Below are positions 13,577 to 19,267 of a DNA stretch of 64,000 nt, in pieces. The stretch comes from Pseudonocardia alaniniphila (GTDB lineage Bacteria > Actinomycetota > Actinomycetes > Mycobacteriales > Pseudonocardiaceae). The position numbers and the translations under genes are program-made. The stretch spans positions 62,001 through 126,000 of the forward strand of contig NZ_JAKXMK010000013.1 in assembly GCF_022524485.1 (NCBI RefSeq), given 5' to 3'. The notes under the pieces were generated by a model. The model saw nothing but the letters and a program-made list of their open reading frames with translations, made no database searches and was not told where the DNA came from. Within the stretch, counting starts at the first letter, position 1, and the number at the start of each line of letters is the position of its first letter.

Positions 13577-14344
13577 TCAGTCGGTGCCGGTACGCAGGGC
13601 GAAGCGCTCGGCCACCGCGATGTCGCCCGTGACCGGCAGCTCGCCTGCGGGGCGGCGGCGGTAGAGGTAGAGCAGCAGGTCGGACGCGGATGCCTGGATC
13701 AGCGCATCCGGCCGCTGATCGGTGCGGTCGGCCAGCCGTTGCCACCGAGTGGCGCCGTGCTCGTCCTCGCCGACGGCCCATCGGATGCCGGTGTCGACGG
13801 CCGAGAGCTCCAGCGTGCCCCCGACCGGAGCGGCTTCCTTCGTGCGGAACGGGGTGCTGACCTCGAGGAACTCCTCGACGGCATCGGTGGCGGCCGCGGC
13901 GTCGAGAGCCTGTGGGCGTCCGACGGCCTGCTCGGCGTCCCAGCGGTGGACGGCGGCCTCCTGGACCTGGTGGCGCACCACGAAGCCGGCGTCGCTCCTG
14001 GCGGCCCAGGTGTAGACGGGCTCGTCGGGCGCCGCCCCCCGGAGCGACTTCACCAGCCGAGAGGCGCCGGCGCGTAGCTCGGGCACCAGCCGCTCCTCCT
14101 CGGGCCGCGCGGCCTCGGGGACCGTGGCCGGATCCTGCACGCGCTCGGCCACGACGGTGCCCCAGAACTGCTGCACCTCGAGCAGGTGCCACACCAGGTC
14201 GGCCACCGACCACTCCGGGCAGCTCGGCACGGGTGACGTGAGATGGCCCTCGGCCGCGTCGGCGAGGGCGAGGGTGTCGGCCTCGATGCGCTGGAACGGA
14301 TCGAAGTGGGTGACAAGCCCGTATGAGCTGCGGTGATCAATCAC
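13577..14344 (-). CDS. Maleylpyruvate isomerase family mycothiol-dependent protein
   Basis: 255-residue protein of the DinB-like mycothiol-dependent family. The N-terminal helical bundle holds the conserved segments CPEWSVADLVWHLLEVQQFW (near 42-61) and RHQVQEAAVHRWDAE (near 124-138), whose histidines form the metal site in the family. The C-terminal domain follows. Most members have no assigned substrate; some are S-transferases or isomerases that use mycothiol, which fits an actinobacterium. GTG start. It converges with the M28 peptidase with only 9 bp between. Confidence 0.85.
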   Translation of the reverse strand: MIDHRSSYGLVTHFDPFQRIEADTLALADAAEGHLTSPVPSCPEWSVADLVWHLLEVQQFWGTVVAERVQDPATVPEAARPEEERLVPELRAGASRLVKSLRGAAPDEPVYTWAARSDAGFVVRHQVQEAAVHRWDAEQAVGRPQALDAAAATDAVEEFLEVSTPFRTKEAAPVGGTLELSAVDTGIRWAVGEDEHGATRWQRLADRTDQRPDALIQASASDLLLYLYRRRPAGELPVTGDIAVAERFALRTGTD

Positions 14345-14399
14345 GATGGGGACGCTAGCGGGAGCGACCGACAGGAACCGGACCTCGCTTCGACCGTTT

Positions 14400-14438
14400 C
14401 AACTGTCTGTTGACCACTTCAACACGGAGTTGTAGCGT
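14400..14438 (+). promoter_or_regulatory. Promoter with two CAAC-N5-GTTG operators
   Basis: Two palindromes, CAAC-TGTCT-GTTG (14400-14412) and CAAC-ACGGA-GTTG (14420-14432), start exactly 20 bp apart, about two helical turns. They overlap a plausible sigma-70 promoter: TTGACC at 14410-14415, a 17-bp spacer and TAGCGT at 14433-14438. The first palindrome runs into the -35 box and the second fills the spacer, a geometry suited to repression. The promoter would drive the ABC importer operon that starts at 14478 and ends in a gene for a DNA-binding protein. Confidence 0.6.
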
Positions 14439-14477
14439 CTGCGCCCATCCTGCCGCTCCCCGCTCCTGGAGGTATCC

Positions 14478-15461
14478 GTGCCTGTCCTGCCGCAGAATCC
14501 GACGGGCCGGTCCCGATCGGGCAGTTGGTGCACCGCCGCGCTCGCGGGGCTCCTGGCCGTGGTGCTCGCCGGGTGCGGTGGCGGCGGGGACGGCGGAGAA
14601 GCCGCCGCGCCGCAGGCCCCCGGTGGTGGAGGCGCGATCCCGGACGTCTCCGCGGTGGTGTCCGGAGTCCAGAAGGATCCGCAACTCGCCGCCATGCTGC
14701 CGCCGCCGATCGCGCAGGCGGGCGTCCTGTCCCTCGGCTCGAACCTCCAGTCGGCGCCGAACAACTTCTACGCGGCTGACGGCACCACGCCCGTCGGCTA
14801 CGAGGTCGACCTGGCGAAGGCGATCGCGGCGAAGCTCGGCGTCACGGTGAAGTACCAGGACATGGCGTTCGGCTCGCTCATCACGAGCCTCCAGTCCAGC
14901 CGGGTGGATCTCACGATGGCCGCGATGAACGACACCGCCGAGCGTCAGAAGCAGATCGACTTTGTCGACTACTTCACGTCCGGCATCACGATCATGGTCC
15001 GCAAGGGCAACCCGGACGGCATCACGGGCCCCGACACCTTGTGCGGGAAGGCGGTGGCGCTCGTGCAGGGCACGAGCCACCAGGAGTTCGCCACCGAGCA
15101 GAGCGCGAAGTGCGTGCAGTCCGGTCAGGCGGCGATCACGATCACTGCCACCGACAGCGACACGCAGAACCAGAACCAGCTGCGCACCGGCCGGGTCGCG
15201 GCCATCCTGAACGACCTGCCCAGCGCGGTCTACATCTCGCGAACGGCGGGCGACGGCAACTTCTTCGAGGTCGTTCCCGGCGAGCCGATCAACGGAGGCC
15301 CGTACGGGATCGGCATCAACAAGACCAACACGCAGCTCACCGAGGCGGTGCGCGGGGCTCTGCAGTCGCTGATCACGGACGGCACCTACGGCAAGATCCT
15401 CGACGCATGGGGCGTCCAGCAGGGGGCCGTCCAGCAGGCGGGCACCAATGCCGGAAGCTGA
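14478..15461 (+). CDS. Polar amino-acid ABC transporter substrate-binding lipoprotein
   Basis: 327-residue extracytoplasmic binding protein of the SBP_bac_3 (glutamine/polar amino acid) family. The signal peptide ends in the lipobox LAGC near residue 33, so it is a lipoprotein. A Gly/Ala-rich linker precedes the binding domain, which starts with GVLSLGSNLQSAPNNFY and includes the family pattern PVGYEVDLAKAIAAKLGVTVKY. The GTG start has GGAGGT upstream. First gene of a four-gene operon; its stop overlaps the permease start by 14 bp. Confidence 0.92.
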   Translation: MPVLPQNPTGRSRSGSWCTAALAGLLAVVLAGCGGGGDGGEAAAPQAPGGGGAIPDVSAVVSGVQKDPQLAAMLPPPIAQAGVLSLGSNLQSAPNNFYAADGTTPVGYEVDLAKAIAAKLGVTVKYQDMAFGSLITSLQSSRVDLTMAAMNDTAERQKQIDFVDYFTSGITIMVRKGNPDGITGPDTLCGKAVALVQGTSHQEFATEQSAKCVQSGQAAITITATDSDTQNQNQLRTGRVAAILNDLPSAVYISRTAGDGNFFEVVPGEPINGGPYGIGINKTNTQLTEAVRGALQSLITDGTYGKILDAWGVQQGAVQQAGTNAGS

Positions 15462-16389
15462 CGTGGAGCAGGGGCGCTCGCTCGCCGTGGGCGAGGAGTT
15501 GCCGATCGTCCGGCTCCGCCACTGGGGCCGCTGGATCAGCGGCGCCGTCGTCCTCGCCCTGCTCGCCCTGCTCGGGGTCGCACTGGCGCAGGCACAGATC
15601 GACTACGGTTCCGTTCCCAAGTTCCTCTGGTACCGGGTGGTGCTGGTCGGCCTGCTGAACACGGTGCTTCTCGCCGTGATCGCACAGGGGTCGGCGATCG
15701 TGATCGGGGTCGTGATCGCCCTGATGCGCCGCTCGGTCAACCCCGTCGCGCGGTGGTTCGCGGCGGCCTACATCTGGCTGTTCCGCGGTCTTCCGGTGCT
15801 GCTCCAGATCCTGATCTGGTACAACCTGGCGCTGGTCTTCACCTACATCTCGATCCCGCTGCCGTTCGGCGGCTACCTGCTGCACGAGCAGACCAACGTG
15901 CTGGTCACCGCGTTCGTGGCGGCGCTGCTCGGGCTGGCGCTGAACGAGAGCGCCTACATGGCCGAGATCGTCCGGGCCGGGCTGAACAGCGTGGACGGCG
16001 GTCAGACCGAGGCGGCGAAGTCGATCGGGATGGGCCCGCTGCTGACGCTGCGCCGGGTGGTGCTGCCCCAGGCGATGCGGGTGATCATCCCGCCCACGGG
16101 CAACGACTTCATCAACATGCTCAAGGGCACCTCGATCGCCTCCGTCATCGGCGTCACCGAGCTGATCCACGCCGCCAACAACATCTCGTCCAACAACCTG
16201 CTGGTGATGGAGACGCTCCTCGCCGCCGCGATCTGGTACATGGTCGTGGTCACGATCGCCGGAATCGGCCAGCACTATCTGGAGCGGTCGTTCGGCGCGG
16301 CCGACCGCGTGGGTTCGGCCGGCGGTGCCTGGTCGCGTGCGGCCCGCGCGCTCCGCACCGCCCCCACGGTGAGGAGCCGGGATGTCTGA
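15448..16389 (+). CDS. Polar amino-acid ABC transporter permease
   Basis: 313-residue inner-membrane permease of the HisM/GlnP type with about five to six membrane segments. The cytoplasmic EAA loop ([29 protein letters not shown]) contacts the ATPase. [11 protein letters not shown] is the typical family motif. A single permease gene implies a homodimeric channel. A soluble N-terminal arm of about 30 residues precedes the first membrane helix. It overlaps the lipoprotein gene upstream and the ATPase gene downstream. Confidence 0.92.
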
Positions 16390-17164
16390 CGCGATCCACG
16401 ACCAGGCGCCCGTGCTGCGTGCCGTCGGCGTGCGCAAGCGGTTCGGCGACACGGAGGTGCTACACGGCGTCGACCTGACCGTGTCGAGGGGGAAGGTGGT
16501 GTGTCTGCTCGGTCCCTCCGGCGCAGGCAAGAGCACGTTCCTGCGGTGCATCAACCACCTCGAGACGATCGACGGTGGCCAGGTCTGGGTGGACGGGGAG
16601 CCCATCGGCTTCCGGCTGCGCAACGGGAAGCTCTACGAGCTGCCCGAACGCGAGGTGGCCCGCCAGCGCCGCCACATCGGCATGGTGTTCCAGCGGTTCA
16701 ACCTGTTCGCCCACCGCACCGTCCTGGAGAACGTGGTGGAGGGTCCCGTCAAGGTGCTCGGTGTGGCTGCCGCTGCCGCTCGCCGGGATGCGCTCGAACT
16801 GCTCGACCGGGTGGGGCTCGCCCATCGGGCGGACGCGTACCCCGGGCAGCTCTCCGGCGGGCAGCAACAGCGGGTGGCCATCGCCCGCGCGCTCGCGATG
16901 AAGCCCAAGCTGATGCTCTTCGACGAGCCGACCTCGGCGCTGGACCCCGAGTTGGTGGGTGAGGTGCTCGAGGTGATGCGGGCGTTGGCAGCCGAGAACA
17001 TGACGATGGTGGTCGTGACCCACGAGATGGGTTTCGCCAAGGAGGCCGCCGACGAGGTGGTGTTCATGGTCGACGGTGCGGTGGTGGAGACCGGGCCGCC
17101 GGATCAGGTGCTGGGCGCGCCGCGTCACGAGCGCACCCGCCAGTTCCTGGCCAGGGTCCTGTGA
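16382..17164 (+). CDS. Polar amino-acid ABC transporter ATP-binding protein
   Basis: 260-residue ATPase with Walker [10 protein letters not shown]-loop FQRFNLF, signature LSGGQQQR, Walker [13 protein letters not shown] and H-loop THEMGFA, all typical of the GlnQ/HisP group. It overlaps the permease upstream by 8 bp, and its stop codon overlaps the next gene by 4 bp (GTGA). All four genes of the operon are therefore translationally linked. Confidence 0.94.
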
Positions 17165-18927
17165 GCGGCGACGTTCGCGAGGCCCGGCTCTCGCCTCGCT
17201 ACCTCGCCCAGTTCGACGAACCGGCCGGGTATCTCGACTTCGCGCGGTTCGGTCCACCGTCGCATGTGGTGCTGGACACCACCGCGCAGCTGCTGGAGCT
17301 GTCGACGAAGGCCGGTCCCGCCACGGTCGACGAGCTGATGCGGCAGGAGGTGCGCGCGAAGGCGGCCATCGCGCGGCTGTGCGGCAGCGACACCGACCAC
17401 GTCGTGCTCGTGCCGAACACCAGCACGGGCCTCTTCCAGGCGGCGTTCAACGCGCCGGGTGGCGAGGTGCTCGTTGCGGCTGCGGAGTTCCCGGCCAACA
17501 CCTACCCGTGGGCCCGCGCGGAGGCAGTGGGCCGCAGCAGGGTTCGCTGGTTGTCCCCGCCCGACGGGCACGTCACGGCCGACGCGGTCGCCGGGGCCCT
17601 GACCGGCGACACCGCCGTGGTCTCGGTCAGCGCGGTCGACTTCCGCACCGGCTATCGGGCGGATCTCGCCGCACTCCGCGAGGTGGTGGGCGATCGGCTC
17701 CTGGTGGTGGACGGAATCCAGGGGTTCGGGGCGGTCGACGCGCCGTGGGACGCTGCCGACGTCCTCGTGGTCGGCGGTCAGAAGTGGTTGCGAGCGGGCT
17801 GGGGCACGGGCTTCGTGGTCCTGTCGGACCGCGCGTTCGAACGGATGCAGCCGGTGCTCTCCGGTTGGACCGGCGCCCGTGACCCAGGGCTCTTCGACGA
17901 CGAGATCCACCCGCCTGCCGACACCGCGGCTGCCTGGTCGATCAGCAACCTCAGCCCGGTCACCTCGGGTGCCTTCGCCGCCGCGCTCGAGCTCGTCGAG
18001 GACGCCGGCATCGCTGCGGTGGAGGGCCGCATCCAGGAGCGTGTCGGGGAGCTGGAGGAGGCACTGCTGTCGCTGGGGGCACGGATCGTGTCGGCCACCG
18101 GCAGGCGTGGGGGCATCCTGGCCTTCGAGCTGCCGGGGCAGCCCGCTGAGCGGGTCGGCGCAGCGCTGGCCGCCGAGGGGATCGCCGCGACGGTGCGTAC
18201 CGAGCACGTCCGACTATCGCCCCACGCCTCCACCCCGGCGTCGGTCGCGGAGCATGTCCGGTCGACGCTGTCGCGGCTGGAACGGGCTCCCCTTTCCTCG
18301 TCGTCACGGCCCACGGTCGGGTCGTCCGGCGAGGCGTCACACGGCGTGCTCACCGCGCTGATCCCTGCGGTGTCGGGCCTGGCCACGATGCTTGGTCCGG
18401 GCAACGAGGTGGTGCTGCACGACCTGTCGCGGCTACCCGACTCGATCATCGCGACGGCGGGCGACGTCACCGGCCGCGCCACAGGCGGCCCGATGACCGA
18501 CCTGCTGCTCGGGCTGGTGCGCCGCGGCACCACGCACGACCTCACCGACTACGAGACCCACGGGCCGAACGGCCGTCCCATCCGCTCGTCCACGATCTTT
18601 CTGCGGGACGAGGCGGGGGTGGCGATCGGCTGCCTGTGCATCAACAGCGAACGTCCGGCCGCCACGACCGGCGCTCGCGGCGAGGTGGAGCAGCGCGAGA
18701 CCTTCCTGCCGGACGTCGACAGCCTGCAACGGTTCCTGGTGGACCATGCGATCGACCGCACCGGGGTGCCGGTGGACCTGATGAAGAAGAGCCACAAGGC
18801 TGCCGTGGTGCAGGAGCTGGACGAGGCAGGCTACTTCCTGATCAAGGACTCCGTGGACCGGCTCGCTGCCGAGCTGGCAGTCACCAGGTACACGATCTAC
18901 AACTACCTCAACGAGATCCGCCGATAG
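17161..18927 (+). CDS. Fusion of class V aminotransferase-fold protein and YheO/DauR-type transcriptional regulator
   Basis: 588 residues in one open frame. Residues 1-375 form a PLP-dependent class V aminotransferase (NifS/kynureninase-like), with D184 and Q187 in [11 protein letters not shown] and the Schiff-base lysine K208 in [13 protein letters not shown]. After a Ser/Pro-rich linker (about 376-392), residues 395-510 match a YheO PAS domain ([32 protein letters not shown]). The end (about 530-588) is the YheO-type helix-turn-helix, [19 protein letters not shown]. YheO proteins such as DauR control D-amino-acid use. Last gene of the importer operon, so it may sense the imported amino compound through PLP chemistry and act on the palindromes at 14400-14432. 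An internal start giving a separate regulator cannot be excluded. Confidence 0.85.
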
Positions 18928-18945
18928 CGGCTCGGCAGACTGTTC

Positions 18946-19133
18946 ATGATCATCGGTTCGGGGTCGGAAGCCGGGTTATGTGCCGTCCCGGGGCCCGAAG
19001 TGTTGATCATGGATCCGCCATGTGCCAGAGGCGGGCGATATCGATCCAGCAATCGCCCTCCAGGCTGATCAGCATGATCATCGGTTTGGGACCGACAAAC
19101 GGGTCATGTGCTGCTGTGAGGCCCCAAGTGTTG
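18946..19133 (+). repeat. Pair of 60-bp direct repeats with inverted CATGATCA ends
   Basis: The 340-bp gap after the fusion gene holds two ungapped copies, 18946-19005 and 19074-19133, identical at 45 of 60 positions by eye. Both begin ATGATCATCGGTT and end AAGTGTTG. The first is bounded by CATGATCA and TGATCATG in inverted orientation. This looks like a small dispersed intergenic repeat. No credible gene is seen here; a 74-codon frame on the - strand (19007-19231) crosses the repeats and is judged spurious. Confidence 0.6.
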
Positions 19134-19267
19134 AACAACGCGTTGCGCCCGCACGCCCTGGGGCCGGTCGCCTCGGGCGGGGGGGCCGTCGACTCAGCGG
19201 AGCACGAATGGGCAGGTCCGCGACGTGTCAAGGCCGGGAGGGCGATCGTCCGGGGTGGGCGACCGGA

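Follow-up and report, generated by a model that had tools for sequence, protein, structure and literature searches.

An aminotransferase-fold enzyme fused to a YheO-type regulator, with a conserved candidate operator, in an amino-acid importer operon of Pseudonocardia and its relatives

Regulators of the MocR/GabR type (GntR family) carry a fold-type I PLP domain and a helix-turn-helix (HTH) in one chain and control genes for amino compounds. MocR proteins consist of an N-terminal GntR winged helix and a C-terminal aspartate-aminotransferase-like domain. To our knowledge, they are the only PLP-fold transcription factors known otherwise. Regulators of the YheO/DauR/CfiR type are free-standing and have a PAS_6 domain followed by an HTH_22 domain. 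PMC4519771 names five architectures that contain PAS6, notes that YheO orthologues are often found linked with an L-PSP (RidA-type) gene, and reports that the free YheO protein CfiR represses its neighbouring L-PSP gene in Campylobacter. Here we describe a protein from Pseudonocardia alaniniphila that joins both kinds of element, a PLP-fold enzyme and a YheO-type regulator. We found no description of this fusion in the open-access literature; it might be among the five PAS6 architectures of PMC4519771.

The window, by which we mean the whole stretch of 64,000 nt analysed here, contains a single open frame of 588 codons on the plus strand (17161-18927) that runs from a GTG at 17161 to a TAG ending at 18927 and encodes 588 aa. 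This gene comes last in an operon with the order SBP_bac_3-permease-ATPase-fusion, as the sequence-only reading had proposed. On the same strand it is preceded by genes for a family 3 substrate-binding protein (SBP) of an amino-acid importer (14478-15461; SBP_bac_3, 114.6 bits), the importer permease (15448-16389; BPD_transp_1, 81.2 bits) and the importer ATPase (16382-17164; ABC_tran, 126.8 bits). The best NCBIfam match of the permease was a cystine permease model, with 145.6 bits versus a cut-off of 300. The GTG start of the fusion overlaps the ATPase stop by 4 nt (GTGA, 17161-17164), and in all 80 loci measured (98 loci are fused) the start codon lay -8 to +3 nt from the ATPase stop, where the start taken for each locus was the in-frame codon nearest -3, a choice favouring that value. 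Just 3' of the fusion gene are two copies of a 65-nt element (18945-19009 and 19073-19137) that are 75% alike. When 18940-19145 was searched against the P. alaniniphila genome, 45 matches were obtained including the query itself, several of them forming arrays with a spacing of about 200-300 nt on contigs C33 and C34; the element is a dispersed repeat family.

The N-terminal half of the protein has a class V aminotransferase fold (17188-18276, about residues 10-372; Aminotran_5 at residues 60-344, 88.5 bits). It is followed by a variable linker (18277-18348, about residues 373-396), a YheO-like PAS_6 domain (18349-18651, residues 397-497; 93.1 bits) and an HTH_22 DNA-binding domain (18736-18912, residues 526-584; 69.3 bits), and all three Pfam scores exceed their cut-offs. 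The ORF and the Pfam matches thus bear out the earlier claim that one frame joins the two parts, the motif YNYLNEIR assigned to the HTH was found at the C end of the protein, and the positions given for D184, Q187 and K208 agree. These residues were identical in all 99 rows of an alignment of fused proteins (83 of them distinct; the L081 row has no PAS domain), so that the Asp and Gln at the PLP and the Schiff-base Lys expected of a class V PLP enzyme are present throughout. Between two reference columns the linker measured 20-27 residues in 90 of the 99 rows, with a full range of 1-43 in which the value 1 comes from a single row, and its mean conservation was 0.49 versus 0.84 for the aminotransferase-fold (AT) half and 0.87 for the PAS domain. 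Between the window and its nearest named relative, Pseudonocardia xinjiangensis (L006, 85%), dN was well under dS in all three domains (dN/dS about 0.14 for AT, 0.28 for PAS and 0.12 for HTH). The open frame, the domain scores, the invariant residues and the low dN/dS together indicate that this is a real, conserved fusion and no chance read-through. Within the PAS domain, residues 491 and 493 (GCLC) are two cysteines in 98 of the 99 rows, the remaining row being the one without the domain, and the free regulator L174 has one cysteine in the matching motif; a redox or metal role of these cysteines is possible.

The same architecture had been proposed for a search in other genomes. Among 80 loci from named genomes, the best 80 of 91 relatives, 67 had an unbroken single-frame fusion accompanied by the SBP, permease and ATPase genes, which rules out an assembly artefact. 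The sequence-only reading would have been contradicted by close homologues in which the two halves are always separate genes; enzyme and regulator were separate neighbours only in the distant relatives L174, L180, L181 and L182. It had also looked to a constant linker and constant operon partners: the partners are kept in the 67 loci, but the linker varies in length and sequence. The fusion-bearing genomes are labelled Amycolatopsis, Pseudonocardia, Herbihabitans, Mycolicibacterium, Mycobacterium, Nocardia, Saccharothrix, Kibdelosporangium, Umezawaea, Lentzea and Actinosynnema, and a contig labelled Rhodococcus rhodnii (L054) had gene positions and identities like those of the Kibdelosporangium loci. 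The other 13 loci comprised 11 with the enzyme only, one with a PAS-less enzyme-HTH protein (L081) and one broken (L070). No SBP or permease was found at the 11 enzyme-only loci, mostly within 6 kb on each side, and one of them (L083) had an ATPase fragment at the locus edge. Of 390 genomes in the window's family, 171 had a match at E 1e-30 and 136 a match over the full length. A class-wide sample of 394 genomes gave 27 matches, the sole full-length one being the window's own.

Many genomes keep the enzyme by itself. When a common pathway was searched for around the enzyme-only relatives at named loci, no neighbour gene recurred in more than two of them. In a set of small genomes with the enzyme-only form (L120-L132 and L134-L137), two flanking families recurred in 17 loci and one in 14. 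These flanking genes resemble, among others, undecaprenyl diphosphate synthase and PhoH-like genes and look like housekeeping genes, suggesting that the enzyme-only form is a core gene in small genomes.

The region 14390-14440 had been singled out beforehand as a DNA site, and a conserved tandem palindrome is present there, at 14398-14432 (plus strand), 45 nt before the SBP start. In the alignment of SBP-gene promoters the unit TTCAAC-N5-GTTG is repeated at a 20-bp step, giving the candidate operator TTCAAC-N5-GTTG-N5-TTCAAC-N5-GTTG. With wider extraction windows and the window locus itself left out, all 67 SBP promoters scored at least 17 of 20 matches (36 at 20, 24 at 19, 6 at 18 and 1 at 17), with a step of 20 bp in 62 loci and 22 bp in 5. 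The maximum was 14/20 in 680 single-base shuffles of the promoters and 15/20 in the 11 enzyme-only loci scanned whole. In the assembly of the window's own genome (9.37 Mb, 115 contigs), a search with up to three mismatches returned 14398-14432 (no mismatch), its reverse strand (two) and one other place (three), which was all that was found by way of a second site; 14398-14432 is the sole close match.

Across the 390 family genomes, 145 had a tandem site with at most two mismatches, and a reversed control pattern occurred in one genome. The site was present in 136/136 genomes with the full fusion versus 9/254 without it (Fisher p about 4e-95, genomes being counted regardless of kinship). Eight of the nine fusion-less sites sit at a YheO HTH or at an enzyme of the fusion's family, so that a dedicated candidate operator co-occurring with HTH or enzyme is observed by comparison. 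In G058, G061 and G062 the gene immediately after the site encodes an enzyme-HTH_22 protein that gives no PAS_6 match, and about 2-4.5 kb of flanking sequence on each side showed no importer gene. G070, apparently the strain of L081 (the site is identical), has the enzyme-HTH form; no importer was found within 6 kb of L081. In two genomes, G077 and G158 (loci L218 and L219), the site precedes the enzyme alone with no HTH behind it, which counts against the enzyme-repressor reading given below, and in G287 a perfect site precedes a remnant whose HTH is 82% identical. Alone of the nine, G228 had no relevant neighbour in its 3-kb locus: this two-mismatch tandem site (L223, G228:C2:401268-401302), with no YheO or class V gene around it, is probably there by chance.

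A consensus scan of 14340-14520 found no sigma-70 promoter. A TTGAC-N16-18-TANNNT pattern was present in 41 of the 67 operator sites, and the operator may overlap the operon promoter. From the comparison with related genomes, the fused protein very probably controls the amino-acid importer of its own operon through this matching site. On the other side of the operator lies a divergent MDMPI_N/DinB_2 gene (13577-14344, minus strand). Among the best 80 of 91 named relatives it has a relative in L006 alone and is for that reason probably outside the system.

PAS-less enzyme-HTH proteins were found in L081, L216, L217 and L221, where the importer is absent as well. In a tree of the AT and HTH parts they formed two pairs, L081-L217 (support 100/99) and L216-L221 (88/88), giving two state changes, which we read as two apparent losses of PAS because the fused clade as a whole has the domain. 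The enzyme motifs are kept in all four proteins. Within the two groups, dN/dS of the AT part was 0.34 and 0.30 versus 0.13-0.32 in ten full-length pairs, and that of the HTH was 0.30 and 0.38 versus 0.00-0.13; by these ratios the enzyme appears still constrained and the HTH less so. The joint absence of PAS and importer can be read in three ways: the PAS domain senses the imported compound and goes with the importer, enzyme and HTH suffice for autoregulation, or decay of the regulatory part is under way. It fits the PAS domain as sensor of the imported compound at least as well as it fits a PLP sensor.

The PAS-HTH halves of the fused proteins formed one clade (SH-aLRT 98; 99/95 in a second tree), indicating a single origin of this part of the fusion. 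Its sister group consists of four free YheO regulators, L173, L174, L180 and L230 (99/98; union with the fused clade 97/93; some branches are long). In the enzyme tree, enzyme-only proteins interleave with fused ones, so that several losses or gains are needed, and the class V enzymes encoded next to L174 and L180 are only remotely related to the fused enzyme. L174 and L180 adjoin a class V enzyme and RidA, and L173 lies beside an amino-acid permease and a gene like D-serine dehydratase/3-hydroxyaspartate aldolase. In L230 (genome G168) a PatB-like C-S lyase, with 324 bits versus a cut-off of 340, comes after the free YheO gene and takes the place of the class V enzyme, and a tandem site with two mismatches lies between an oligopeptide-type ABC transporter and the divergent YheO gene. 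This locus (L230, 4373-8364) possibly serves the uptake and cleavage of sulfur-substituted cysteine peptides. A tandem site precedes the permease gene in L174 (18/20, step 22); L173 has one strong site and no tandem (14/20), and the best tandem in L180 (16/20, step 18) is hardly above controls. By these scores, a convincing tandem site among the sister regulators is present in L174 and L230 only.

With a single-site matrix, L174 scored 22.4 bits versus a shuffled maximum of 11.5 and L173 27.1 versus 15.2; the best sites of L180, L181 and L182 fell in the expected promoters but under the shuffled maximum. Such matches prove little, since the best single site also beat the shuffles in three of six other free-YheO loci (L169, L171 and L172), at places with no relevant promoter. 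L181 and L182, on rhizobial plasmids, have the order SBP-permease-permease-class V enzyme-RidA-YheO with a site in the SBP promoter (17/20, step 19), and their YheO proteins fall outside the sister clade. Their operons (L181, 4357-12964; L182, 4367-13008) adjoin dioxygenase and maleylacetate reductase genes and may serve to break down a non-protein amino acid of aromatic or heterocyclic type. Another rhizobial class V gene (L183) lies beside RidA and importer genes, but its regulator is of the LysR type and a PAS protein is not annotated there. Enzyme-YheO pairs like that of L174 were found in one of 246 genomes of its genus at E 1e-80, L174 itself, and a search for a solved relative of the PAS-HTH half gave no match at E up to 10.

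The enzyme half shares its fold family, with D-x-x-Q and K, with SufS/CsdA, EgtE, kynureninase and PvdN. A cysteine desulfurase of the SufS/IscS type was rejected, as the SufS model scored 53.7 bits versus a cut-off of 475.1. C74, the only cysteine of the enzyme half, is a Cys in 65 of the 99 rows and Ser or Ala in 34, which makes the enzyme half unlike a persulfide-forming desulfurase. The EgtE lyase model (TIGR04343) was absent from the window's matches at E 0.001 and gave 32.1 and 37.4 bits, against a cut-off of 400, for the enzyme-only L068 and L083. No NCBIfam model reached its cut-off for the window protein or the enzyme-only relatives, leaving no substrate assignment by this route. A parallel with mimosine lyase, for which PMC3333776 mentions MidABC/MidD, was considered without gain. 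The neighbours of the unfused cousins suggest beta-elimination over transamination: RidA, which clears enamine products, adjoins their separate class V enzymes. Across L001-L114, RidA was not found at any fused locus, so the case for beta-elimination is drawn from cousins with only about 33% identity in the class V enzyme. By this analogy, PLP beta-elimination is the likely chemistry of the enzyme half. A D-amino compound, as the sequence-only reading had it, is weakly suggested by the gene neighbours of a single sister regulator, L173.

Taken together, we favour, with a probability of about 0.6, a single-chain enzyme-repressor ('trigger enzyme'), acting at a tandem operator, that would autoregulate how an imported amino acid is taken up and degraded. 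Inside the family-3 amino-acid importer operon, a class V PLP enzyme would have been joined to a YheO-type regulator, and the C-terminal HTH would bind the tandem TTCAAC-N5-GTTG palindromes upstream of the SBP gene. A dimer is the usual state of the class V PLP fold, and the PLP-fold dimer and the PAS domain may hold the HTHs as pairs. The bound protein would repress, or otherwise control, SBP-permease-ATPase-fusion. Repression is the likely mode, by analogy with CfiR and its adjacent L-PSP gene (PMC4519771). The amino acid brought in by the importer, or its product, would then change the state of the PAS domain and possibly of the PLP site, upon which the operator would be released, and the enzyme half would break down what the importer brought in, most probably through PLP beta-elimination. 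That the protein binds DNA and PLP, represses the operon and is catalytically active, and what its signal is, we infer from these comparisons.

A serious contender, to which we give somewhat less than even odds, is that the PAS domain is the sole sensor, and that the enzyme half is a normal catabolic enzyme attached to its repressor to allow co-expression and dimerization but exchanging no signal with it. It would agree with the joint absence of PAS and importer in four relatives with two changes on the tree, with free YheO regulators that occur without a fused enzyme, and with the retention of the enzyme alone elsewhere. However, the fusion is kept in all 67 importer-bearing loci among the best 80 of 91 named relatives despite the variable linker, and PAS-less enzyme-HTH proteins persist in four genomes. 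The existence of these PAS-less forms behind the operator would also suit an enzyme half that is non-catalytic and acts only as a MocR-like sensor of PLP or amino acid, and a conserved catalytic lysine is compatible with GabR-like sensing. We regard this as improbable, because five enzyme-only, HTH-less relatives (62-78% identical) share D184, Q187, K208 and many other invariants, so that the chemistry is probably retained.

As to the reaction itself, a true transaminase, racemase or epimerase, and no beta-lyase, seems unlikely to us. The Pfam family is the broad Aminotran_5 and no NCBIfam model assigns the protein at its cut-off, but RidA beside the unfused cousins and the C-S lyase beside a sister regulator suggest elimination, and the top NCBIfam models, far under their cut-offs, were mostly desulfurases and lyases. 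A joined frame that misleads, with an internal start yielding a free YheO regulator, would find a GTG at residue 396 of the window protein with a purine-rich stretch upstream. Such a start, which would also have contradicted the sequence-only reading, is not conserved: among 15 linkers inspected, L006 and L020 have no start codon and the positions differ in the rest, which makes it very improbable. A tentative extension of the enzyme-repressor reading is that the class V enzyme itself recognizes its substrate in the form of a PLP adduct and shifts the HTH at the tandem operator, catalysis being the signal. The protein would then be a second, independently evolved PLP-enzyme transcription factor, the mirror image of MocR with the enzyme first and the HTH last, and L081, L216, L217 and L221, which have kept an operator of their own in two separate branches, would represent its simplest version.

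Compared with known systems, the tandem palindrome TTCAAC-N5-GTTG as candidate operator of the importer operon is new here, and it gives a candidate DNA motif to part of the little-known YheO family, a branch tied to amino-acid-breakdown PLP enzymes, RidA proteins and amino-acid transporters. With the candidate operator, the operon readout, the unfused cousins and the natural PAS-less versions, one can test directly whether turnover by an enzyme is able to determine how its importer is expressed. The rhizobial operons of L181 and L182 resemble the locus in having an importer, a class V enzyme, a YheO protein and a related tandem palindrome before the SBP gene, but there the enzyme gene and the regulator gene are unfused and RidA lies in between. 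Free YheO/DauR/CfiR-type regulators have the same PAS_6-HTH_22 order as the window protein, whose regulator is not free-standing but the C-terminal third of a PLP enzyme. The protein would work somewhat as MocR proteins do, but membership in MocR/GabR was rejected, as there was no GntR match and the domain is of class V (not class I/II) and N-terminal. As the sequence-only reading had stated, HTH type, domain class and domain order all differ: in the window protein the N-terminal class V fold is followed by PAS_6 and then the C-terminal HTH_22. The fusion would thus represent a conserved route to a PLP-fold transcription factor that is unrelated to MocR.
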